The notes under the pieces were generated by a model, which saw only the letters and a program-made list of their open reading frames with translations, was not told the DNA's origin and did no database searches. The position numbers and the translations under genes are program-made. A stretch of 42,692 nucleotides of DNA. Origin: Longimicrobiaceae bacterium. Lineage in GTDB: Bacteria; Gemmatimonadota; Gemmatimonadetes; Longimicrobiales; Longimicrobiaceae. The stretch spans positions 1 to 42,692 of the forward strand of contig DASRQW010000412.1 of NCBI GenBank assembly GCA_035696245.1, in the 5' to 3' direction. Below, one piece after another: positions 1,619 to 31,885 of the stretch. Position 1 is the first letter of the stretch. Every line of letters starts with the position of its first letter.

Positions 1619-4210
1619 ATGGACTGCTACGTGCTGGATTTTCAGGAGATCGACCAGACGCAGGTCGCGGTCGTTGGCGGCAAGGCCGCGAACCTGGGGG
1701 AGCTTTCGCGGATCGAAGGCATCCGCGTGCCGGCTGGCTTCTGCGTGACGACGGAAGCCTTCCAGCGGATCATCGCGGAAGCGCCGTCGATCAGCGACCT
1801 GATCGAGCGGCTTTCCCGGCTGAAGCCGGACGACCGGGAGGCGATCCGCACGCTCGGCTTGGAAGTCCGTCGGATCATCGAAGGGATCGCCATCCCCGAC
1901 GATCTGGCGGCGGCGATCATCCGCCCGCTCGCGCGACTCGGCGAGCAAGCCTACGCCGTCCGATCCAGCGCGACGGCGGAGGACCTGCCGACGGCCTCGT
2001 TCGCCGGCCAGCAGGACACGTATCTGAACGTCGTAGGGCGGGCGGCGATCCTCCGGCACGTCAGCCGGTGCTGGGCCTCGCTCTTCACCGACCGGGCCGT
2101 TACCTACCGCCTGCGGAACGGCGTGGACCACCGGAAGGTCCACATGGCCGTGGTCGTGCAGCGGATGGTCTTCCCGCAGGCGGCGGGCATCCTGTTCACG
2201 GCGGACCCCGTTTCGGGCAACCGGAAGGTCGCCTCCGTCGAGGCGAGCTTCGGCCTCGGCGAGGCTCTGGTCTCCGGCCTGGTGAACGCGGACGTCTACA
2301 AGGTGCGCGACGGCGAGGTCGTCGCCGGGGCGGTCGGCACCAAGCGGCTCGCCATCCTCGCCTCCCCGGCGGGCGGGACGCACGAACAGGCGATCGAGCC
2401 GGGGCGGCAGGAGCAGGCGGCGCTGACGGACGCGCAGGTCGTGCGGCTCGCGCAGATGGGCCGGCGGATCGAAGCGCACTTCGGCCGCCCCCAGGACATC
2501 GAATGGTGCCTGGCGGACGACGACTTTCAGATCGTCCAGAGCCGGCCGATCACAACGCTGTTCCCCATCCCCGCGGCCGGCGACGGCGAGAACCACGTCT
2601 ACCTCTCCGTCGGCCATCAGCAGATGATGACCGACCCCATGAAGCCGCTGGGGATCTCCGTCTGGCAGCTGACGGCCATGGCGCCGATGCACGAGGCCGG
2701 CGGGAGGCTGTTCGTGGACGTCACGCGTGCCCTGGCGTCACCGGCGGGCCGCGCGGGGCTGCTGGGGATGGCGGGCAAGTCCGATCCGCTCATCGGGGAC
2801 GCGCTGCAGACCATCATCGACCGCGGCTTCATCCCGTCGCTCCCGGACGCGGGTCCCGGCGGGCCGCCGGCGGGCGGCGCACCCGCACCGATCGAGACCG
2901 ATCCGGCCATCGTCGCCGAGCTGATCGAGCGCAGCCAGGCTTCTCTCGCATCCCTGAAGCGCGACATCCGGACGAAATCCGGACCGGCGCTGTTCGACTT
3001 CCTCGTGGAGGCCTTTCAGGAGCACAAGCGGGTTCTGAGCGAGCCGCGCAGCATGCAGGCGATCATGGCGGGGATGGAGGCCACGTGGTGGCTCAACGAG
3101 CGGCTGCAGGCGTGGCTGGGCGAGAAGAACGCGGCCGACACGCTCACGCAGTCCGTCCCCCACAACGTCACTTCGGAGATGGGACTGGCGCTGCTGGACG
3201 TTGCCGACGTCATCCGGCCGCATCCGGACGTGGTGGCTTTCCTGCAACGCGCCGGCGACAACGAGGGCTACCTCGACGAGCTGCCCGCGCTCGCGGGCGG
3301 GCGGGAAGCGCGAGACGCGATTCAGGGCTGGCTCGACAAGTACGGCATGCGCGGCGTTGGCGAGATCGACATCACCCGGCCGCGCTGGAGCGAACGCCCC
3401 ACCACGCTCCTGCCCATGATCCTCGGCAACGTCAGGAACTTCGAGCCGGGCGCCGGCGCGCGGCGCTTCGAGCAGGGGCGGCGGGAGGCGTGGAAGAAGG
3501 AGCAGGAGCTGCTGGCGCGCCTGCGGGCCCTGCCCGCCGGAGACGCGAAAGCCGAAGAGACCAAGCGGATGATCGACCGGGTCCGGACCTTCGCCGGGTA
3601 CCGGGAATATCCGAAGTACGGCATCGTCAGCCGCTACTTCGTCTACAAGCAGGCCTTGCTGGAGGAAGCCGGGCGCCTCGTGCAGGCCCACGTGCTTCGT
3701 GAGAAGGAAGACATCTTCTGGCTCACGTTCCAGGAGTTGCACGACGCGGTGCGCACGAACCAGGTGGATGACCGGCTCATCCGCCAGCGCAAGGACGCGT
3801 TCCGTTCGTATCAGGCGCTCACGCCGCCCCGGGTGCTCACGTCGGATGGCGAGGCCGTCGCCGGGACGTACCGGCGCGACGATCTGCCGGCCGGTGCGCT
3901 GGTCGGCCTGGCGGTTTCCGCTGGGACGGTCGAGGGACGGGCCCGCGTGATCCTGGACATGGCGAAGGCGGATCTCGAACCGGGTGACATCCTGGTGACC
4001 GCCTACACGGACCCCAGCTGGACGCCCCTGTTCGTTGCGATTGCGGGATTGGTGACGGAAGTCGGCGGCCTTATGACCCACGGCGCGGTGATCGCGCGGG
4101 AGTACGGTCTGCCGGCCGTCGTTGGCGTGGAGCACGCCACCCGCCTGATCCAGGACGGCCAGCGCATCCGCGTCCACGGAACGGACGGGTACGTCGAGAT
4201 CCTGCCCTAG
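1619..4210 (+). CDS. rph: Rifamycin-inactivating phosphotransferase (PEP-synthase-like)
   Basis: An 863-residue protein, close to the roughly 867 residues usual for Rph. It transfers the beta-phosphate of ATP to rifamycins, inactivating them in the cytoplasm. The N-terminus (YVLDFQEID, then GGKAANLGELSRIEG) is the ATP-grasp part typical of Rph and PEP synthase, about residues 1-315, with SSATAEDLPTASFAGQQ as the nucleotide-loop region. The C-terminal swivelling phosphohistidine domain carries GGLMTHGAVIAREYGLP, placing the catalytic histidine at residue 821. GGGAGG lies six bases before the ATG. A RAE-like element upstream and an attC-like structure downstream suggest induction by rifamycins and possible acquisition as a cassette. 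An ordinary PEP synthase is less likely given the length and the N-terminal signature. Confidence 0.88.
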   Translation: MDCYVLDFQEIDQTQVAVVGGKAANLGELSRIEGIRVPAGFCVTTEAFQRIIAEAPSISDLIERLSRLKPDDREAIRTLGLEVRRIIEGIAIPDDLAAAIIRPLARLGEQAYAVRSSATAEDLPTASFAGQQDTYLNVVGRAAILRHVSRCWASLFTDRAVTYRLRNGVDHRKVHMAVVVQRMVFPQAAGILFTADPVSGNRKVASVEASFGLGEALVSGLVNADVYKVRDGEVVAGAVGTKRLAILASPAGGTHEQAIEPGRQEQAALTDAQVVRLAQMGRRIEAHFGRPQDIEWCLADDDFQIVQSRPITTLFPIPAAGDGENHVYLSVGHQQMMTDPMKPLGISVWQLTAMAPMHEAGGRLFVDVTRALASPAGRAGLLGMAGKSDPLIGDALQTIIDRGFIPSLPDAGPGGPPAGGAPAPIETDPAIVAELIERSQASLASLKRDIRTKSGPALFDFLVEAFQEHKRVLSEPRSMQAIMAGMEATWWLNERLQAWLGEKNAADTLTQSVPHNVTSEMGLALLDVADVIRPHPDVVAFLQRAGDNEGYLDELPALAGGREARDAIQGWLDKYGMRGVGEIDITRPRWSERPTTLLPMILGNVRNFEPGAGARRFEQGRREAWKKEQELLARLRALPAGDAKAEETKRMIDRVRTFAGYREYPKYGIVSRYFVYKQALLEEAGRLVQAHVLREKEDIFWLTFQELHDAVRTNQVDDRLIRQRKDAFRSYQALTPPRVLTSDGEAVAGTYRRDDLPAGALVGLAVSAGTVEGRARVILDMAKADLEPGDILVTAYTDPSWTPLFVAIAGLVTEVGGLMTHGAVIAREYGLPAVVGVEHATRLIQDGQRIRVHGTDGYVEILP

Positions 4211-19250: not shown

Positions 19251-19367
19251 CGTGCGTCGAAACGCGGGCGGGCTCCAGCCCCATCCCCCACCGGGCGCAA
19301 CTCGCGCACCGGCAGCGCGGCGGGCCACGCGGCCCTCCGGCGGTTCCACGAACCAGAACTTTACGAA

Positions 19368-19441
19368 GCTGCTCAGAGCAAAGGCGCCGAAAGGCGCCGG
19401 CGCAGAGCCACGGGGCTACCGCGGGGAACCGCCACGCCAGC
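19368..19441 (+). ncRNA. Cyclic-di-GMP-I-like riboswitch, copy 1
   Basis: P1 pairs GCTG (19368-19371) with CAGC (19438-19441). P2 is GGCGCC-GAAA-GGCGCC (19383-19398), a GNRA-capped stem as in the class I aptamer. The strand after it (GGCGCAGAGCCACGGGGCTA) resembles the class I consensus GACGCAAAGCCACGGGCCTA. A short P3 follows (GCGG/CCGC, 19421-19432). The distal part departs from the classic aptamer, so this may be a variant. A terminator hairpin follows immediately, then the lipoprotein gene at 19540. Confidence 0.7.
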
Positions 19442-19443
19442 CG

Positions 19444-19487
19444 AGCCGCCAGCTTCCCGACGAGCGTCGGGAGAGGTGGCTTTTTTT
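19444..19487 (+). terminator. Intrinsic terminator / expression platform of leader 1
   Basis: AGCCGCC pairs with GGTGGCT and CTTCCCGAC with GTCGGGAGAG, capped by GAGC, then a run of seven T (19481-19487). It sits between the aptamer and the lipoprotein start, so ligand-controlled termination is likely. Confidence 0.8.
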
Positions 19488-21601: not shown

Positions 21602-21644
21602 AACCTGCATCCCCGGCCGCCGACGCAGACGGCCGGAACGGAAC

Positions 21645-21725
21645 GCTGATCAGAGCAACGGCGCCGAAAGGCGCCCGCGCAGAGCCACGGGGCTACCGCG
21701 GGAGACAGTCTCCCGCCATGCCGGC
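21645..21725 (+). ncRNA. Cyclic-di-GMP-I-like riboswitch, orphan copy
   Basis: It has the same architecture as the other two copies. P1 is GCTG (21645-21648) with CGGC (21722-21725), a G-U wobble where the others have a Watson-Crick pair. P2 is GGCGCC-GAAA-GGCGCC (21660-21675). The strand CGCAGAGCCACGGGGCTACC and a longer perfect P3 (GCGGGAGAC / GTCTCCCGC) follow. No gene is directly downstream; the next leader starts 455 bp on. Confidence 0.6.
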
Positions 21726-21727
21726 CG

Positions 21728-21765
21728 AGCCGCCAGCGACTCGAGATCCGTCGACCCTGGCGGCT
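21728..21765 (+). terminator. Terminator-like hairpin without T-tract (orphan leader)
   Basis: AGCCGCCAG (21728-21736) pairs perfectly with CTGGCGGCT (21757-21765), the same stem as in the other leaders, but CTGTGC follows instead of a T-run. It has probably lost termination function. Confidence 0.6.
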
Positions 21766-21769
21766 CTGT

Positions 21770-22119
21770 GCATTCCGGAAACGGAAACCTTGCTCGACGA
21801 AGGATCCGGACAGGCAACCGGCGACGGGCGAAGCGAGCCCTGGGTTACTCCATCCGCCAGATTTCGCGGAACGAGGGAACGCCGAGCCGCGTTGTGCAAA
21901 GTTTCTCGCACAATGCGCAGGTTACCCGAACCATGACAGGCGGACAGGAAGGCCACGCATCGCTCGTAACAATGGGGATTGGCCGGAGTTGTAGATACAC
22001 GGGTGATTGTGAATCATGTGGAGTAGTTCTCGTAAGTTAGCCAGGGCGCGAAATGACGCGCTAAAAACCCTCAAATGCAAACAAATGTCGTAACTGATTG
22101 TCGAATATGGGCTTACGCA
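21770..22119. other. Spacer between leaders; no gene seen
   Basis: There is no supported coding frame. It contains an inverted repeat TTGTGC...GCACAA (21892-21913). An AT-richer stretch from about 22050 leads into the sigma-54-type promoter. Confidence 0.5.
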
Positions 22120-22135
22120 TGGCACACCTCATGCG
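22120..22135 (+). promoter_or_regulatory. Sigma-54-type promoter upstream of leader 2
   Basis: TGGCACACCTCATGCG has TGGCAC at -24 and ATGC at -12 with GG and GC exactly ten bases apart. The expected start is near 22146, about 35 bp before the aptamer-like leader. Confidence 0.6.
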
Positions 22136-22179
22136 ATTTTCCCGCAACGCGGCCGCCGATGATGGCGGACCGACCGGAC

Positions 22180-22259
22180 GCTGATCAGAGCAAAGGTGCC
22201 GAAAGGTGCCGACGCAGAGCTACGGGGCTACAGCGGGGGGCAACTCCCGCCACGCCAGC
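22180..22259 (+). ncRNA. Cyclic-di-GMP-I-like riboswitch, copy 2
   Basis: P1 is GCTG (22180-22183) with CAGC (22256-22259). P2 is GGTGCC-GAAA-GGTGCC (22195-22210), a paired change relative to GGCGCC that keeps the stem through G-U pairs. The conserved strand GACGCAGAGCTACGGGGCTA closely follows class I cyclic-di-GMP aptamers, and a P3 GCGGG/CCCGC stem follows. A perfect terminator and the large lipoprotein gene lie downstream. Confidence 0.72.
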
Positions 22260-22261
22260 CG

Positions 22262-22303
22262 AGCCGCCAGCGACTCGCAGGGTCGAGCTGGCGGCTTTTC
22301 TTT
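22262..22303 (+). terminator. Intrinsic terminator / expression platform of leader 2
   Basis: AGCCGCCAGC (22262-22271) pairs perfectly with GCTGGCGGCT (22287-22296), followed by TTTCTTT. It lies between the aptamer-like fold and the gene start at 22369. Confidence 0.82.
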
Positions 22304-22368
22304 GCCCAAAAACGGGGGAAAAGCCGCGGTTCCGGGAGTCACTAACGCGGTTTCGAGGAGACGTTCAG

Positions 22369-25122
22369 ATGAGAAGCACGGCAGCAAGCAGGAACGGGAA
22401 GGCCATCCTGGCGGCTACGGCGCTCGCGGCGCTGGCGGCCTGCTCCGACCGCACGCAGGCCCCGGTGGGCCCGCTGGACGGCGGCGTGCAGGCAGCCCCC
22501 GCCGTGGCGACCAGCGGGTATAGCGCGGTCGTGGGAGACGACTGGAAGGCGTACCAGACCAAGGACCAGCTCAAGGCCGCCGGCCTGTTCTGGTGGGTCG
22601 ACTCGGCCAACCGGAACGTGTACGACTACGTGGACCTGGTACAGGACCCCACCTTCGGGCAGGTGGTGCGCATCACCTTCCCGGCGAACACCGGCTCGTC
22701 GGGGTCGTCGCCCCGCATCGCCAAGGACCTGCCGGCGCCCATGGACAAGATGTGGTACCGCTGGCGCATGAAGTTCCAGCCCGGCTGGACCACGGTGGGC
22801 CCCGACCCCAGCGGCTGGGCCAACAGCTACAAGATCGCCTTCTGGACCTGGCAGGGCTACGCGGGCCGCGGCGAGATCGAGTACTCCAACACCAGCGAGT
22901 ACATCACCGGCAACGGCGTGAACGACGGCGCGACCGGCGCCAGCCTGTCGTACAAGGAGACGCTCATGCCCGGCAGCGCCGCCAACTTCGGCGTGACCAG
23001 CCAGGAGTGGAGCGACGGCCAGTGGTACGAGTTCGTGGTCTACTACGAGAAGACGGGCGCGACCACGGCCAACCAGTACTTCTGGCGGCGCAAGCTGACC
23101 ACCAACGGGGCCATCAACCCCAACCCGTGGATCTTCCACGGCTACGCCATGAGCGGCAACACCACGCCGCAGGTGGCGCACGTGGAGCTGGGCATCAACA
23201 AGAACAAGAACAACCCCACCACCATGTACCTGTACTGGGGCCAGTGGGAGGTGGTGGACGGGGCCAAGTACCCCAACCCGTTCGGCATGCCCAACGTGAG
23301 CGGCAGCGCCCCGGCGCCCTCGCCCGCCACGGCCACCAAGGTCACGGTGAGCCCCAAGACGGTCTCGCTCGCCCCCTCGGGCACGGCGCAGTTCAGCGCC
23401 ACCGCGCAGATGAGCGACGGCACCACGCAGGCGGCGTCGGTCACGTGGACGGCCACCGCGGGCACCGTGGCGAGCACGGGCGCCTACACCGCGCCGGCCA
23501 GCGCGGGCACGTACAAGGTCGTGGGCACCGCCGCGAACGGCATGGCCGACACGGCCACGGTCACGGTGGCCGCGCAGTCGGCGACGGTGACCAAGGTGAC
23601 GCTGGCGCCCAAGGGCAGCAGCGTGCAGTCCGGCAAGACGCTGCAGTTCAGCGCCACGGCCACCATGAGCGACGGCACGTCGCAGCCGGCGAGCGTGGCC
23701 TACAACGCCACCGGCGGCACCATCAGCGGTGCCGGGCTGTACACGGCCGGCGCAGCCGCGGGCACCTTCCGCGTGATCGCCACCGCCACCAACGGCGTGG
23801 CCGACACCGCCTCGGTCAACGTGACCGCGGCCCCGGCGGCGACGCTGACGGCGGTCGTGCTCAACCCGCCCACCGCGTCCGTGCAGGCGGGCGGAACGGT
23901 TCAGTTCACCACGTCGGGCACGTACAGCGACGGCACCAGCAAGGCCGTGGCGGCCACGTACTCGGCCACCGGCGGGACCATCACCACCGCGGGCCTGTAC
24001 ACGGCGGGCCAGACGGGGGGCACGTTCCGCGTGATCTCGGTCGCGCAGGGCTCCACGCTGGCGGACACGTCCACGGTGACCGTCTCGTCGCCGGCAGCGA
24101 CACGGCCTACGCTCACGAGGGTGGTGCTGAACCCGCCCAGCGCGTCGGTGCAGGGTGGCGGGACGGTGCAGTTCTCCGCCACGGGCACCTACAGCGACGG
24201 GTCGTCCAAGGCGGTCACGGCGACCTACAGCGCCACGGGCGGCACGATCACCACGGCGGGCCTGTACACCGCGGGGCAGACGGCCGGCACCTTCCGCGTG
24301 ATCGCGGTGGGCCAGGGCTCCACGCTGGCCGACACGTCGGCCGTGACGGTCACGGCGTCCACCACGTCGGCGCCGCCGAGCACGGGGGCGTACGCCAAGG
24401 TCGCGGGTGACGACTGGCGCTCGTACGCGGCGGGCAGCTCGCTGCAGCCCACGGGCTACTTCGGCACCTCGGCGGCCACGTACGCCAACGTGTCGCTCGT
24501 CTCGGACCCCACGTTCGGGCAGGTCGCGCGCGTCACGCAGAACGCCGGCACCACCACGGCGCCGGTGCTGAACAAGAAGCTTCCCGCGGCGCTGGACCGC
24601 ATGTGGTTCCGCTTCCGCATGAAGCTCTCGCCGGGCTGGAACGCAGGCAGCGGGTGGACGCTGGCGCGGTGGACGTGGTCCGGATACGGTGGCAGCGGCA
24701 GCCTGGACTTCGAGAACGGCGCGGGCTACGCCAACAACTGGAGCGCCAAGGACGCCGGCAACCAGTACATCCGCTACACCGAGAACCTGCTGCCCGGCAG
24801 CACGGCCTTCGGCACGGCGAGCGCGGAGCTCACCAGCGGCGACTGGTACGAGTACGTGGTGTACTGGCAGAAGACGGGCGCCACCACGGGCCGCCAGCAC
24901 TTCTGGAAGCGCCGGCTCACCAGCGGCGGCACCACGGTGAACAACGCCTTCACCTACTACGGCTACACCGAGGACGGCAGCACCACGCCGCAGGCGGCGG
25001 CCGTGCAGCTCGGCGCCAACCTGCTCAAGGCGCCCGCGGCCACCCAGTACGTGTACTGGGGACCGTGGGAGGTGGTGAACGGCGCCACCTACGCCAACCC
25101 CTTCGGCATGAGCGGCTTCTAG
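22369..25122 (+). CDS. Secreted lipoprotein: two GDDW domains flanking four Ig-like repeats (paralogue 2)
   Basis: A 917-residue lipoprotein. GAGGAG precedes ATG 22369, and the signal ends at lipobox LAAC (ALAALAACSDRT). A first GDDW domain spans about residues 51-310 (VVGDDWKAY to WEVVDGAKYPNPFGM). Four Big_2-like Ig repeats follow (about 321-664), each near 80 residues. The third and fourth are nearly identical at DNA level, both carrying TITTAGLYTAGQT. A second, more diverged GDDW domain (about 674-917, VAGDDWRSY to WEVVNGATYANPFGM) ends the protein. Two copies of a putative glycan-handling module on a flexible stalk suggest cross-linking or binding of extracellular polysaccharide. It is preceded by a sigma-54-type promoter, an aptamer-like leader and a terminator, and followed by a strong terminator at 25170. 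Confidence 0.85.
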   Translation: MRSTAASRNGKAILAATALAALAACSDRTQAPVGPLDGGVQAAPAVATSGYSAVVGDDWKAYQTKDQLKAAGLFWWVDSANRNVYDYVDLVQDPTFGQVVRITFPANTGSSGSSPRIAKDLPAPMDKMWYRWRMKFQPGWTTVGPDPSGWANSYKIAFWTWQGYAGRGEIEYSNTSEYITGNGVNDGATGASLSYKETLMPGSAANFGVTSQEWSDGQWYEFVVYYEKTGATTANQYFWRRKLTTNGAINPNPWIFHGYAMSGNTTPQVAHVELGINKNKNNPTTMYLYWGQWEVVDGAKYPNPFGMPNVSGSAPAPSPATATKVTVSPKTVSLAPSGTAQFSATAQMSDGTTQAASVTWTATAGTVASTGAYTAPASAGTYKVVGTAANGMADTATVTVAAQSATVTKVTLAPKGSSVQSGKTLQFSATATMSDGTSQPASVAYNATGGTISGAGLYTAGAAAGTFRVIATATNGVADTASVNVTAAPAATLTAVVLNPPTASVQAGGTVQFTTSGTYSDGTSKAVAATYSATGGTITTAGLYTAGQTGGTFRVISVAQGSTLADTSTVTVSSPAATRPTLTRVVLNPPSASVQGGGTVQFSATGTYSDGSSKAVTATYSATGGTITTAGLYTAGQTAGTFRVIAVGQGSTLADTSAVTVTASTTSAPPSTGAYAKVAGDDWRSYAAGSSLQPTGYFGTSAATYANVSLVSDPTFGQVARVTQNAGTTTAPVLNKKLPAALDRMWFRFRMKLSPGWNAGSGWTLARWTWSGYGGSGSLDFENGAGYANNWSAKDAGNQYIRYTENLLPGSTAFGTASAELTSGDWYEYVVYWQKTGATTGRQHFWKRRLTSGGTTVNNAFTYYGYTEDGSTTPQAAAVQLGANLLKAPAATQYVYWGPWEVVNGATYANPFGMSGF
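23331..24360 (+). repeat. Four in-frame Ig-like (Big_2) repeats
   Basis: The units begin near 23335, 23587, 23850 and 24115, about 80 codons each. Each has a core reading S(A/T)(T/A)GTYSDG-like text followed by GG(T)I(T)...GLYTAG. The last two are the most similar, pointing to recent internal duplication. Confidence 0.8.
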
Positions 25123-26698: not shown

Positions 26699-27733
26699 TT
26701 GCCCGTCCGGAATCCCCCATCCCGATCTCCCGCGCATCTCCGCGCGATGCGTGGCGTACGCGCAACACCGGGCGTGGGCGCGCGTCGCCGCAGGTTCGGG
26801 CGCGGCGCGGCGTGGATGGCGGCATTCGCGTGCGTCGCGGTGGCAGGGCTCGTGCGCGCGGCGGGGAGCGAGCGGGTGCGCAGGCAGCTGGAGCCCGCGC
26901 TGGCATCGGCCGCGTCGTTGCTGCCGGGCGGGCCGCAGCGCATCTCCCAGACGGGCGCGTACCGCACCGTCGCGGGCGACGACTGGAAGAGCTACGCGTC
27001 GCGCGAAGAGCTGCGGCGATCGGCGTACTTCTGGTGGTTCGATGCGCGCGACGTGTACGGCTTCGTCGACCTGGTGCCGGACGCCACCTTCGGGCGTGCG
27101 CTGCGCATCACCTTCCCGGCGAACGCCGGCTCGCCCGGCTCGTCGCCGCGCATGGCGCAGAAGGTGGCGCCGCTGGACGACATGTGGCTGCGCTGGAAGA
27201 TGCGCTTCGAGCCGGGCTGGACCACGTCCGGCCCCGACCCGGCGGGATCTGCGGACAGCTACAAGCTGGCGTTTTTCCAGTGGGAGGGCTTCGACGGGCG
27301 CGGCGAGCTGCAGTTCTCGAACGGCACGGATTACGTGACCGGCGTGGGCGTGCAGGAGCGCGGCGGGGCGTATCTGCCGTACCTGGAGATGCCGCTGCCG
27401 GGCTCCGCGCCGGACTTCGGCCGCGTGACGACGGAGTGGACGGATGGCGAGTGGTGGGAGTACGCGATCCATTACCGGAAGACGGGCGAGAGATCCGCCG
27501 TCTTCCAGTACTGGCGCCGCCGGCTCACCCGCGGCGGGCGCATCGACCCCGGCGGGTGGACGTACCACGGCATGGAGATGCGCGGCTCGCCCACCCCGCG
27601 CGTGGCGAAGGTGGAGCTGGGGGCGAACAAGAACAAGAACAACCCGCGCGACCTGCATCTGTTCTGGGGGCCGTGGGAGGTGGTGGACGGTTCTCGCCAT
27701 CCCGATCCGTTCGCGCTGCCGAACGCGTTCTGA
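26699..27733 (+). CDS. Secreted GDDW-domain protein (paralogue 3)
   Basis: About 344 residues. I place the start at TTG 26699 because GGAGG lies six bases before it; ATG 26666 and ATG 26747 are in the same frame but have no ribosome binding site. A basic n-region (GARRRRFGRG) precedes one hydrophobic stretch (AAFACVAVAGLVRAA), a Sec signal peptide or membrane anchor without a lipobox cysteine. A single GDDW domain fills residues about 85-344 (VAGDDWKSY to WEVVDGSRHPDPFALP), 60-70% identical by eye to paralogue 1. There are no Ig repeats and no riboswitch-like leader, unlike the other two. It is probably a surface polysaccharide-binding or -cleaving protein. Confidence 0.8.
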   Translation: MPVRNPPSRSPAHLRAMRGVRATPGVGARRRRFGRGAAWMAAFACVAVAGLVRAAGSERVRRQLEPALASAASLLPGGPQRISQTGAYRTVAGDDWKSYASREELRRSAYFWWFDARDVYGFVDLVPDATFGRALRITFPANAGSPGSSPRMAQKVAPLDDMWLRWKMRFEPGWTTSGPDPAGSADSYKLAFFQWEGFDGRGELQFSNGTDYVTGVGVQERGGAYLPYLEMPLPGSAPDFGRVTTEWTDGEWWEYAIHYRKTGERSAVFQYWRRRLTRGGRIDPGGWTYHGMEMRGSPTPRVAKVELGANKNKNNPRDLHLFWGPWEVVDGSRHPDPFALPNAF

Positions 27734-27797
27734 GGCGGTTCTGCCGGGCTGGTGCAGGCGAGTGGTGGCGGTTGAAACCGCGGCAACGACTGCGCAA

Positions 27798-27815
27798 AGT
27801 CCGCCTTCGCGGACT
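27798..27815. repeat. Short perfect hairpin AGTCCGC-CTTC-GCGGACT
   Basis: Seven-base arms and a CTTC loop follow the GDDW-protein gene, with no T-tract. It could be a REP-like element or a weak terminator. Confidence 0.5.
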
Positions 27816-27887
27816 AACGGCAACTGCTTGGAAGACCTGAGGTTCCTCGCATTTTCTGCCCGTCGACATTCCCCGAGCTGGAATCCC

Positions 27888-29444
27888 GTGGCGAAAACTC
27901 AGACATCGGCCGAGGGCCCCGCGGTTCGGGCGGGCATGCGGCGCGCGCGCGTGGCCGTTCCCGCGCTGAACGGGCGTGGCATCGTGGTAGATGCGGAGCC
28001 GGTGAGAGCTGCGGATGCGGTTCCCGGCGCGGAGAAGCTGGGTATCGCGGCGATCCTGCTGGTGGGCGCGGCGCTGCGGATGTGGGGACTGCGAAGCTTC
28101 CCGCTGGACCAGGACGAGCTCTACACGGTGATGGAGGGGCGCGACCTCTTCCACGTGGCGCTGGCGCCGGGGATCCACGCGCGGCCGCTGTACTTCCTGC
28201 TCCAGCACGTCATGCTGTCGCTCTTCCCCGCGACGGAGGGATGGCTGCGGCTGGTGCCGTTCGTGGCGGGCGTGGCGGGCATCTGGGCGGTGTGGGTGCT
28301 GGCGCGGCGGGTGTTCGGTGGCGCGGCGGGGCTGGTGGCGGCGGTGCTGGTGGCCGTTGCGCCGTGGCACCTGCACGAGAGCGGCTTCGCGCGCTACTGG
28401 TCGGTGCTCTTCCTGCTCTCCGCCCTCTTCCAGCGCGCGCTGTGGGAGGCGTACGGGCGGGAGAGGATGCGCGGCTTCGTCGCGGCCCTGGTGCCGCTGG
28501 CGCTGGGGTCGGCCACGCACCCGTCGTTCGCGTTCCCGGCCGCGGGTGCGGCGCTGGGCGTCACGCTCGTGCGGGCGGATGGGCGGTTCGGCTGGCGGTG
28601 GCCGTCGCGGCTGGCGTGGATGGGGCTGTGGATGCCGTACCTGGCGCTCATCGCGGCGGGCTGGGCGGCGCTACGGCTGGGCGGGCACTCCGGCGCGCTT
28701 CAGAACTGGGGCGGGCGCGGCTGGCTCTCCACGCTGCGCCTTGTCCCCGCCGTCGCAGAGTGGCTGTCGCCGGCGATGTGCGTGGCGGGGCTGCTGGGTG
28801 CCGCGGCCGCGCTCGCATCGGGAGATGCGGGGCGGCGGCGCTGGGGCGCGATGGCGGCCTGCGGCGTGGCTGCCACGCTGAGTGGGATGATGATCGCCGC
28901 CTTCCGCACCGACGTGTACGCGGACTACGCGACGGCCATGCTGCCGCTCGTCTTCGTCTCCGCGGGCGGGCTGGTGCAGATGGGCGTGGAGCGGATGGCG
29001 TCCGGACGTGCCCTCGCCGCCTGGGCCGCGACGGCGGTGCTGTGCGCGGCGGTGCTTCCGGCGACCGTATCGCACATCTCCAGCGGAACGCGCTACGACT
29101 ACCGGCCGGCGTTCGCCTATCTGCGGGCGCATGCGGCCGGAGCGCGCGTGCTCACGTGGCCGAGAGTCGTGGCCGACCGCTACGCCGCGGGCCTGAACGT
29201 CCGCGAGATGCGCCACGATCCCGCGTTCCTGGAGCGCGAGCTGGCCGCGGCGGGCGATGTCTGGGTCGTCTCGTCGGTCCAGCGCTACGGCATGGTCGAC
29301 GACGACGAGGGTCTCGTGAGCCGCTGGCTCGCCCACCGCTGCACCGAGGAAGCCGCCTTCGAGCGCCCGCGCTGGGACTACCGCATCTACCGTGTGGTCG
29401 TGCACCACTGCGTACGGACGCCGGGAGCACCGCCGCGGCCGTGA
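27888..29444 (+). CDS. GT39/PMT-like polytopic membrane glycosyltransferase
   Basis: About 518 residues. A hydrophilic N-terminus of about 45 residues precedes roughly ten to eleven membrane helices. The first loop carries FPLDQDELYTVMEG, the acidic loop motif of GT39/ArnT-type enzymes that use polyprenyl-phosphate sugars. HARPLYFLLQHVML and APWHLHESGFARYW are further family-like segments. A soluble C-terminal part of about 120 residues follows. It probably transfers a sugar from a lipid carrier to a glycan, lipid or protein on the periplasmic side. The start is uncertain: GTG 27888 and ATG 27936 are both possible. A strong terminator follows at 29463. Confidence 0.8.
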   Translation: MAKTQTSAEGPAVRAGMRRARVAVPALNGRGIVVDAEPVRAADAVPGAEKLGIAAILLVGAALRMWGLRSFPLDQDELYTVMEGRDLFHVALAPGIHARPLYFLLQHVMLSLFPATEGWLRLVPFVAGVAGIWAVWVLARRVFGGAAGLVAAVLVAVAPWHLHESGFARYWSVLFLLSALFQRALWEAYGRERMRGFVAALVPLALGSATHPSFAFPAAGAALGVTLVRADGRFGWRWPSRLAWMGLWMPYLALIAAGWAALRLGGHSGALQNWGGRGWLSTLRLVPAVAEWLSPAMCVAGLLGAAAALASGDAGRRRWGAMAACGVAATLSGMMIAAFRTDVYADYATAMLPLVFVSAGGLVQMGVERMASGRALAAWAATAVLCAAVLPATVSHISSGTRYDYRPAFAYLRAHAAGARVLTWPRVVADRYAAGLNVREMRHDPAFLERELAAAGDVWVVSSVQRYGMVDDDEGLVSRWLAHRCTEEAAFERPRWDYRIYRVVVHHCVRTPGAPPRP

Positions 29445-29530: not shown

Positions 29531-30799
29531 CTACTCGCGCGGTGAGGCGAGAAGCTCATCGGCCGACACGCCGAAGGCGACGAGCACGTCTCCGCTCGCA
29601 CGGTAGTATCGGCTTTTCCCGGCGGTACGTGTGGCGTGGATCGCCTTCTTCTGCTCCAGGCGCTGAAACAGCTTGCTAACCCCTGCCTGGCTGAGCTTCG
29701 TGGACTTGGCTGCATCAGCAACGCGCACCTCGCCCGCGGCATGGCCGTCGAGGATTCGCTTGAGCTGGGCGAAGTCGTCCTCACCCACACGCTCTCGAAG
29801 CCTGCGTTGGCAGTCCGGGGCCGCCACTCGCCGTACATCTGCCTCGGTCATCGGCCGCACCCCGTGGACCCCTAAGATCGCCTCGGCGGCTTCGGTGAGC
29901 AGGCGCAGGAAGTTGCGAAGGTCTCCCTGGTACAACGCGTACAGCCTTGCCGCTTCCGCGGGCTCGATGGGCGGAGTGACGGAGTGTTTCGCGAGCTTGA
30001 GATGTTCGTACCGCAATGCAAGCAGGCGTTCGACGGATGCCGGGGAGAGCGACTCGAGAACCAGGGCGGCCGGGAAGATCCCGCCTACCTGCTCGTGGGT
30101 TCGGAAGATCGTGGTCTCGATACCCGTGGCTCCCACGAACATCCAGTGCGCACCGGGGATCAGGAGGTAGTCCCGCAGGTCGAGAACCAGCGTGGCCGCG
30201 GCCTGCGCATGCTCGATCGTCAGGGCTTCCAGGTTGTTTATGTGCAGTACCACGGGCGCGCCGATCTCGGCGGCCATGTGGTCCAGCGCGGCGCCGAGGT
30301 GTTCGTACAGCGAGTCGGGTGGAGCTTGAGGCGCTACGTAGCCGCGCGACATCCCTGCTCCCAACCCCATGAGCGATACCGATCCGCCGATCAGTTCGCC
30401 GCCCTCCAGGATACGGGCGGTGCGCGACCAGATTCCGCTCTCGTTGTCGAGCCCCGCACCGAGACGGATTCGCAGGAGCGTTCGCAGCACGTCCGCAATG
30501 AACGAGCTGCGCGTGGTCGTCGACTCGATCCGCACCGGCTGGTCGTACGTGGCGAGCCCGAGACTCGCCAGGTCGGCCTTGAGGCGATTCACGAAAGTGG
30601 TCTTCCCCACCCCCGGTGCCCCTTCGATGATCGTGCGTGTCGCCGTATCCGTCGAGAGACGCCGCCGCACACGCTCAAGCTCGCCATCTCGGCCAACGAA
30701 GAGGCTTACCGGGTGAGCGGAGTCACTCGTACGCAGCTCACTTTGGAAGAACGGATTTCCGCTCAGCCCGAACGGCTCCCACAAAGTAGAGATCGACAT
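29531..30799 (-). CDS. Orc1/Cdc6-like AAA+ ATPase with C-terminal winged helix
   Basis: A 422-residue protein. After WEPFGLSGNPFFQ comes FVGRDGELERVRRRL, the N-terminal sensor of Orc/Cdc6-like ATPases. Walker A is GAPGVGKT (residues 60-67). The Walker B strand reads VVLHINNLEAL, with Asn-Asn where Asp-Glu is usual. A lid region follows, and the last roughly 75 residues form a MarR-like winged helix (AKSTKLSQAGVSKLFQRLEQKKAI). A DNA-binding ATPase regulator is likely. Its promoter (TTGCTT-17-TATAAT) is overlapped by three 18-bp iterons, so autoregulation is probable. It sits between two polysaccharide gene groups and could control them. ATG 30799 is chosen because family sequence begins there; there is no strong ribosome binding site. 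Confidence 0.78.
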   Translation of the reverse strand: MSISTLWEPFGLSGNPFFQSELRTSDSAHPVSLFVGRDGELERVRRRLSTDTATRTIIEGAPGVGKTTFVNRLKADLASLGLATYDQPVRIESTTTRSSFIADVLRTLLRIRLGAGLDNESGIWSRTARILEGGELIGGSVSLMGLGAGMSRGYVAPQAPPDSLYEHLGAALDHMAAEIGAPVVLHINNLEALTIEHAQAAATLVLDLRDYLLIPGAHWMFVGATGIETTIFRTHEQVGGIFPAALVLESLSPASVERLLALRYEHLKLAKHSVTPPIEPAEAARLYALYQGDLRNFLRLLTEAAEAILGVHGVRPMTEADVRRVAAPDCQRRLRERVGEDDFAQLKRILDGHAAGEVRVADAAKSTKLSQAGVSKLFQRLEQKKAIHATRTAGKSRYYRASGDVLVAFGVSADELLASPRE

Positions 30800-30829
30800 A
30801 GGGCTATCATCACCGTTTGAAGGTTGTCG

Positions 30830-30883
30830 GTTATTATAGTCAAATGAGTTATGATAAGCAAATAAGTTATCATAACCAACCGA
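30830..30883. repeat. Three 18-bp AT-rich iterons (operator candidate)
   Basis: GTTATTATAGTCAAATGA, GTTATGATAAGCAAATAA and GTTATCATAACCAACCGA follow each other without a gap at an exact 18-bp period. Each begins GTTAT-N-ATA. Units 2 and 3 also form a perfect 10-bp inverted repeat (GTTATGATAA / TTATCATAAC). They cover the promoter of the AAA+ gene and stand out as AT-rich in a 70% GC region. Confidence 0.85.
30833..30861 (-). promoter_or_regulatory. Sigma-70-type promoter of the AAA+ gene
   Basis: On the minus strand TTGCTT (30861-30856) and TATAAT (30838-30833) are 17 bases apart. The expected start near 30826 gives a leader of about 27 nt. The promoter lies wholly inside the iterons. Confidence 0.7.
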
Positions 30884-31075
30884 ACGCGCTCGGTAATGAT
30901 GGATCCGTAGCGAAATGCGAAACGCTCCCTGCCGCTGTTGGACGCGTGCAACAGTCGGGGGTGCGGGACGACAGGGGGGAGGCAGGGGACCGATTTGTAT
31001 CTCTTTGCAGATGGGAGAGATACGGCGCACGGCGAGCAGGCGGGGCAGGGCACCGGCATTGCGCTTGGGAGCGGT

Positions 31076-31885
31076 ATGAGGACTCGCCCCGAGGTATCCG
31101 TCATCTTCCCGGCCTACAACGAAGAGGCCCGCCTGGAGCCCACCGTCGCTTTGGCGGCGGCGTACTTCGCGCGCACGGGGTGCGCGGCCGAGCTGATCGT
31201 GGTGGACGACGGGAGCCGCGACGGCACCGGCGCGCTGGTGCGCCGCCTCGCGGACCACGTCGACGCGTTGCGGCTGATCCGCCTGCCCGCCAACCGCGGC
31301 AAGGGCTACGCGGTGCGCGCCGGCGTGGTGAACGCGCGCGGCCGGCGCATCCTGTTCGCGGACGCCGACGGTGCCACGCCCATTGAGGAGCTGGAGCGGC
31401 TGGACGCGGCACTGGACCGCGGCGCGGACGTGGCCATCGGGAGCCGGGCGGTGGCGGCGGCGGGCGTGGAGGTGAAGGCGCGGCTGCACCGGCGGCTCAT
31501 GGGGCGCACGTTCCACCTGCTGGTGAGCGCGCTCACCGTGCGCGGGTTCAGCGACACGCAGTGCGGCTTCAAGCTGTTCCGGGCAGACGTGGCGCAGGAC
31601 CTGTTCTCGCGCATGCGCATGGACGGCTTCAGCTTCGACGTGGAGGTGCTGCTCATGGCGCAGCGCCGCGGCTATCGCGTGGCCGAGGTGCCCGTGAACT
31701 GGGCGCACGTGCCCGGCAGCCGCGTGAACCTCGTCGCGGACTCGCTGAAGATGGCGGCGGACCTGTTCGCGATCCGCGGCCACGCGCTGCGCGGGCGCTA
31801 CGACCAGCCGCACCTGGCGCCGCTGGTGGAATCGCCCTTCCTCGCGGTGGATGCCGCGAAGACTCCGGCCGGCGTGGCGGGATGA
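31076..31885 (+). CDS. GT2 glycosyltransferase (dolichyl-phosphate sugar synthase-like)
   Basis: A 269-residue GT-A enzyme. VSVIFPAYNEEARLEPTV opens the GT2 fold, VVDDGSRDGT is the nucleotide-binding motif and DADGAT the metal-binding DxD-like motif. NRGKGYAVRAG and FSDTQCGFKLFR are characteristic of the polyprenol-phosphate mannose/glucose synthase branch. It lacks C-terminal membrane helices. It would load a sugar onto undecaprenyl phosphate, supplying membrane glycosyltransferases such as the GT39-like protein at 27888. GGGAG lies upstream of ATG 31076. Its stop overlaps the next start (ATGA), making it the first gene of the long plus-strand cluster. Confidence 0.87.
   Translation: MRTRPEVSVIFPAYNEEARLEPTVALAAAYFARTGCAAELIVVDDGSRDGTGALVRRLADHVDALRLIRLPANRGKGYAVRAGVVNARGRRILFADADGATPIEELERLDAALDRGADVAIGSRAVAAAGVEVKARLHRRLMGRTFHLLVSALTVRGFSDTQCGFKLFRADVAQDLFSRMRMDGFSFDVEVLLMAQRRGYRVAEVPVNWAHVPGSRVNLVADSLKMAADLFAIRGHALRGRYDQPHLAPLVESPFLAVDAAKTPAGVAG

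Follow-up and report, generated by a model that had tools for sequence, protein, structure and literature searches.

A five-site repeat array over the promoter of an AAA_16/winged-helix ATPase gene is a probable private operator in a Longimicrobiaceae bacterium

We analyzed a 42,692-nucleotide stretch of DNA from a Longimicrobiaceae bacterium (the window; contig DASRQW010000412.1 of assembly GCA_035696245.1), in which short repeats lie directly upstream of a gene for a P-loop protein. These repeats form a dyad-symmetric array that, judging from comparison of sequences, is probably the private operator of this adjacent, probably horizontally acquired gene, where an oligomer of the encoded protein would repress its own gene. 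Differently spelled, similarly arranged repeats occur at most distant relatives of the gene, which makes self-control by the protein the most likely reading.

The core of the array consists of three gapless units at spacings of 18 and 18 bp (Table 1), just as the original prediction described from their GTTAT-N-ATA heads. The GTTATNATA heads are exact in all three units; the description of the triple repeat as exact holds for these heads and not for the tails, since identity to the first unit over the full 18-mers is 78% and 72%. Every head forms one half of an imperfect 11-bp palindrome, GTTATNATAAC. The triple-head pattern had no matches in 100 dinucleotide shuffles of the window, with up to three mismatches permitted. 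Two further claims, that the repeats form an AT-rich island and that they contain a whole TTGCTT-17-TATAAT promoter, also hold. The lowest-GC 54-mer of the window starts at 30831 (GC content, 26%, versus 72% for the window), and the coordinates of the two boxes on the minus strand place the entire promoter within the array. Our promoter scan does not call this promoter because its −35 box fits the consensus at only three of six positions.

Table 1. Positions of the repeat array, predicted promoter elements, and ATPase gene in the window
Feature	Position	Strand	Remark
Core array, three 18-bp units with GTTATNATA heads	30830..30883	+	Unit starts 30830, 30848, 30866
Predicted −10 box TATAAT, within unit 1	30833..30838	−	Consensus match only
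Predicted −35 box TTGCTT, within unit 2	30856..30861	−	Sequence; matches consensus 3/6
Outer site GGTAATGATG, 2 mismatches to GGTTATNATA	30892..30901	+	27 bp center-to-center from third unit
Outer site GGTGATGATAGCC, 1 mismatch to GGTTATNATA	30802..30814	−	Mirror position, ends just 5′ of start codon
Gene for 422-aa AAA_16/STAND-type P-loop protein with C-terminal MarR-like winged helix	29531..30799	−	ATG at 30799
Walker A GAPGVGKT, residues 60-67	30599..30622	−	
Walker B region HINNLEAL, residues 186-193	30221..30244	−	N-N in place of usual acidic pair
Winged-helix region, about residues 353-410	29570..29743	−	MarR_2/ArsR-type matches

The repeat is larger than originally described, with five sites rather than three. 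Scanning with GGTTATNATA identified one additional site on either side of the core, each 24 bases from the core edge. These outer sites are exactly mirror-symmetric about the core, and an equally good mirrored pair was found in 0 of 20,000 flank shuffles. Site centers follow a 27-18-18-27 pattern, and the array is therefore dyad-symmetric. Altogether, the five sites extend for ∼100 bp, with the upstream promoter edge at one end and the start codon at the other.

Pattern searches of the entire 5.65-Mb assembly (561 contigs) found GTTATNATA in the array only, as the three forward heads and one reverse match within the third unit. The perfect palindrome GTTATNATAAC occurs once in the assembly and, with one mismatch, in just three locations beyond the array. 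We found no other promoter in the genome with the motif, and single-mismatch matches are few. Homologues in two other genomes (G009 and G014) likewise have motifs almost confined to their own promoters. With each motif all but restricted to its own promoter, a wider regulon is unlikely.

The protein encoded beside the array matches Pfam AAA_16 (37.8 bits versus a gathering score of 32.6). Across 20 homologues, AAA_16 was matched in 18 and the winged-helix family MarR_2 in 11 (E ≤ 0.001), in keeping with the earlier reading of an ATPase with a winged helix; the MarR_2 match of the window protein itself is weak (0.0011, under the curated cut-off). The earlier Orc/Cdc6 label is not supported: the curated orc1/cdc6 model (TIGR02928) scored 15.7 bits (cut-off, 181), aligning with the P-loop stretch alone (32-79), and the acidic Walker B is absent. 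Walker A is intact, and the Walker B consensus of the 20 homologues is LHLNNLENL, in which the second Asn is invariant and the first nearly so (N188-N189 in the window protein). This Asn-Asn pair is also common to an archaeal relative. A PDB search returned P-loop and winged-helix matches only, and a structure prediction from a two-sequence alignment gave an unusable model (pLDDT, 36). We found no description of this P-loop/winged-helix family in a literature search.

The ATPase gene has a GC3 of 0.78, compared to 0.91 to 0.95 in neighboring genes, which together with its patchy occurrence suggests that it was probably horizontally acquired. Homologues are present in 8 of 61 near relatives and in 30 of 395 Gemmatimonadota genomes, weak matches included (∼8%), with up to three divergent copies per genome. 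Broader scans identified relatives in one archaeal MAG and on one Curtobacterium plasmid, the latter without AT-rich repeats, and in no phage or viral contig. Local identity is highest (53%) for a homologue (L018, G008:C453, 9431-10409) that is frame-broken, with its 5′ part swapped for permease-like sequence, and is apparently a decayed copy.

In the window, the gene is monocistronic and stands alone amid an exopolysaccharide cluster (GT2, Wzy_C, and ABC-transporter genes), with no restriction-modification genes among its neighbors. It is convergent with a long plus-strand ORF without a Pfam match (27444-29444), which on reading appears to encode a membrane glycosyltransferase-like protein. 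On its other side it is divergent from a GT2 gene, with the exopolysaccharide operon beginning 193 bp from the core array, at 31076 on the plus strand. This divergent arrangement and the nature of the neighbors would suit an operator shared by both sides, through which the protein also controls the exopolysaccharide operon, but we regard such sharing as unlikely: in relatives a tandem upstream gene is commoner than a divergent one, no neighbor is conserved, and the sites overlap the ATPase promoter rather than a recognizable plus-strand promoter. Elsewhere in the window, three c-di-GMP-I riboswitch aptamers lie within 3 kb on the plus strand (19367-19453, 21644-21737, and 22179-22271), the second and third of them overlapping, or immediately 5′ of, the start called for an Ig-like (Big_2) protein ORF (22075-25122).

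The original prediction offered a model in which multimers of the protein bind their own iterons, acting either in autorepression or like a replication initiator. Autoregulation of this kind appears well supported by the comparison of homologues described below, whereas initiator-like behavior is unsupported. A lack of iterons in homologous genes, named in the prediction as a refuting observation, was not borne out for most homologues. An iteron-type replication origin of an integrated element, with the protein as its Orc/Cdc6- or Rep-like initiator, would explain why direct repeats adjoin a P-loop ATPase with a winged helix, and it is in keeping with the AT-rich island and with the occurrence of one distant relative on a plasmid. 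Nevertheless, it is extremely unlikely. Cumulative GC skew, which had been proposed as a check, climbs from 27 to 36 kb without a turn at the repeats; the Orc1/Cdc6 model finds no match past the P-loop; and the gene is patchy, multicopy in some genomes, and placed within an exopolysaccharide cluster with no accompanying element genes. In addition, phage and viral relatives were not found, the repeats of relatives cover the promoter in an operator-like six-half-site symmetry, and the plasmid relative lacks AT-rich repeats. Skew, patchiness, copy number, and the genomic setting thus led us to reject a replication origin.

We read the upstream regions of 28 homologues, the first 23 of which were used in a test for repeated 8-mers on either strand; about half of these 23 regions beat all 60 dinucleotide shuffles. 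Most homologues carry repeats of their own in the same place, where the original prediction had proposed looking for the same iterons. We scanned a four-half-site model, with two sites in each orientation and a single repeat distance D, over D values of 15 to 45. The mean score of the 28 homologues was highest at D = 29, which was the best distance in 10 of 28 homologues versus 2 of the 116 upstream regions that served as controls (Mann-Whitney, p ∼ 1e-5). A large group of homologues has six half-sites in dyad symmetry with 28- to 29-bp repetition (e.g., GCGAGATAAATAATTTTCTCGC repeating at 29 bp in L037), a geometry that is rare in control promoters. The outer half-sites of this group, which were outside the fit, occupy the predicted mirror positions in almost every member (combined Fisher p of 5e-13 and 2e-14, values that cover the outer sites only because the inner sites of these sequences had been used to select the group); the misfits are 2 of 15 sequences, L034 and L090. 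The outer-site pattern had been partly spotted by eye in four homologues before the test, and group members are not fully independent because they share ancestry.

Phylogenetically, the window protein groups with L017, L025, L026, and L039 (support, 100/100). Arrays with 18-, 19-, or 36-bp spacing are present in four of these five: besides the window, L017 has GCATNATGC on a 9-bp grid (spacings 27-9-9-18-9-9-27), L026 has GGTTATNAT in both orientations at 36 to 37 bp, and L039 has CTATNATAG at 19 bp. The 18-bp array of the window is therefore its clade's variant. The departure of this clade (18/36/19 bp) from the 28- to 29-bp group counts against a self-operator; the window array and that group share dyad symmetry and ∼24 bases between facing outer half-sites. 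L025 has no AT-rich array, and those of L020, L023, and L035 are weak, which likewise speaks against a self-operator. In place of AT-rich repeats, L025 carries a long GC-rich inverted repeat (GTGGTAGGCCGGTCGGGCGTGTTA ... TAACACGCCCGACCGGCCTACCAC) upstream of 1501. The archaeal relative (L066) has a near-palindrome, TTTTATAAAGTTGGAAACTTTATATAA, on a TATA-like box just 5′ of its gene (about 3937-3963; 0 of 100 shuffles).

Half-site sequences differ among homologues, even within one genome, while the geometry is kept. Similarity of half-sites follows identity of winged helices (Mantel r = 0.29, p = 0.005; partial on the ATPase domain, p = 0.025). This covariation is modest and partly phylogenetic, and some of it could stem from the shared ancestry of promoter and gene, yet it is the pattern that a winged helix reading the half-sites should produce. 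The same comparison bears on whether the repeats might instead be sites of an unrelated host regulator, or chance repeats in an AT-rich promoter. The overlap of AT-rich repeats with the promoter and the absence of repeats from some homologues would agree with either, but both are very unlikely given that the motif is at no other promoter in the genome, that shuffles of window and flank exclude chance, that homologues of one genome keep the geometry with different sequences, and that repeats covary with the winged helix.

We propose that several ATPase subunits would bind the array via their C-terminal winged helices and sit symmetrically on the promoter, blocking RNA polymerase and thereby repressing their own gene. 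Assembly of the subunits is probably the task of the nucleotide-binding domain, which may also switch release or rearrangement of the complex; with Asn-Asn at Walker B, the protein may bind ATP without efficient hydrolysis. Such a regulator would work like the controller (C) proteins of restriction-modification systems or like RptR. Because the window copy is monocistronic, it would be a regulator of itself only, which counts against the self-operator. An activator could show an identical array architecture, and the protein might activate its own promoter in positive feedback, as some C proteins do, with nucleotide state as the switch; the weak −35 box (3/6) is compatible with this, and C proteins that are both activators and repressors are known (PMC3695507). 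Self-activation is nonetheless fairly unlikely, and occlusion is favored because the sites span the −10 box and the start region up to the start codon.

Over 26 loci, for which gene starts were set by rule, neighbor ORF calling was crude, and assemblies were fragmented, we found no conserved neighbor or operon partner except at two restriction-modification loci and at three loci adjoining PilB/PilT/PilC-like genes. The former (L058, 2371-11285, and L059, 2571-11397) are from two genera and encode, on the same strand and in the same order, a DrmD-like SNF2 helicase, the AAA_16/winged-helix ATPase, a type III methylase, and a type III restriction enzyme, such that the ATPase promoter region stands ahead of the methylase and nuclease genes. 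The ATPase copy of L058 has a 29-bp array, and that of L059 (L034 above) is a poor fit to the model. HipA-like (L051) and DpdE-like (L056) neighbors each occur once. The PilB/PilT/PilC-like genes adjoin ATPase homologues in L051, L053, and L063, from different genera; Pfam confirms only the T2SSF (PilC-type) match of L051. The putative link to defense draws on two related loci and a few loose neighbors, a further point against the proposal. In solitary copies, the protein would either serve a second function or be a controller whose cargo has been lost or not yet captured.

It is possible, though doubtful, that these proteins constitute an undescribed, horizontally spread family with private operators of conserved six-half-site geometry and freely diverging sequence, which would insulate copies in the same genome from one another. 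The geometry would then come from an ATP-assembled hexamer or trimer of dimers on the promoter DNA, and the family would supply an interchangeable controller able to capture defense genes, type III restriction-modification among them. Without a curated name other than AAA_16, the family gains a testable function from the self-operator reading. The ∼28 natural protein-operator pairs, about half with one fixed geometry, lend themselves to deciphering a winged-helix recognition code and to exploring how six half-sites accommodate an ATP-binding assembly. With the type III restriction-modification cases, the family would represent a new class of defense controller.

Among known systems, RptR represses its own defense-island promoter via three direct repeats, each based on a 6-bp palindrome (PMC12255303). 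Here, too, the regulator gene adjoins its own promoter, three direct repeats on short palindromes cover that promoter, and there is an association with restriction-modification, in the L058 and L059 relatives. In contrast to the 422-aa P-loop protein, RptR is a small dimeric repressor with no ATPase domain described and with one conserved site, TAGCTA (PMC12255303). The window array does not contain TAGCTA, its counterparts diverge among homologues, and restriction-modification genes are usually absent. C proteins are autoregulated, with symmetric operator half-sites that overlap their own promoters and operators that differ by system. The window array and its relatives appear similar in their symmetric half-sites over the gene's own promoter and in operators that differ between homologues. 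C proteins (reviewed in PMC3874152) are, however, small helix-turn-helix proteins without an ATPase domain, mostly of type II systems, whereas the window protein has a P-loop domain. Their linked restriction-modification genes are absent beside the window gene and present in L058 and L059. MalT, AfsR, and archaeal MNS-type ATPases are STAND/AAA_16 P-loop NTPases with DNA-binding domains, a combination that the window protein shares through its above-cut-off AAA_16 match and its winged helix. It differs from them in its Asn-Asn Walker B, its lack of sensor repeats, and an apparent target that is its own promoter only. BrxR and CapW bind one inverted repeat as a dimer. Like the autorepressor proposed here, these WYL-domain regulators of defense loci (PMC9122601, PMC9122588) are of the winged-helix autorepressor type, with inverted-repeat operators near defense genes; they carry a WYL domain and use one inverted repeat, whereas the system described here combines an ATPase domain with a multi-site array.
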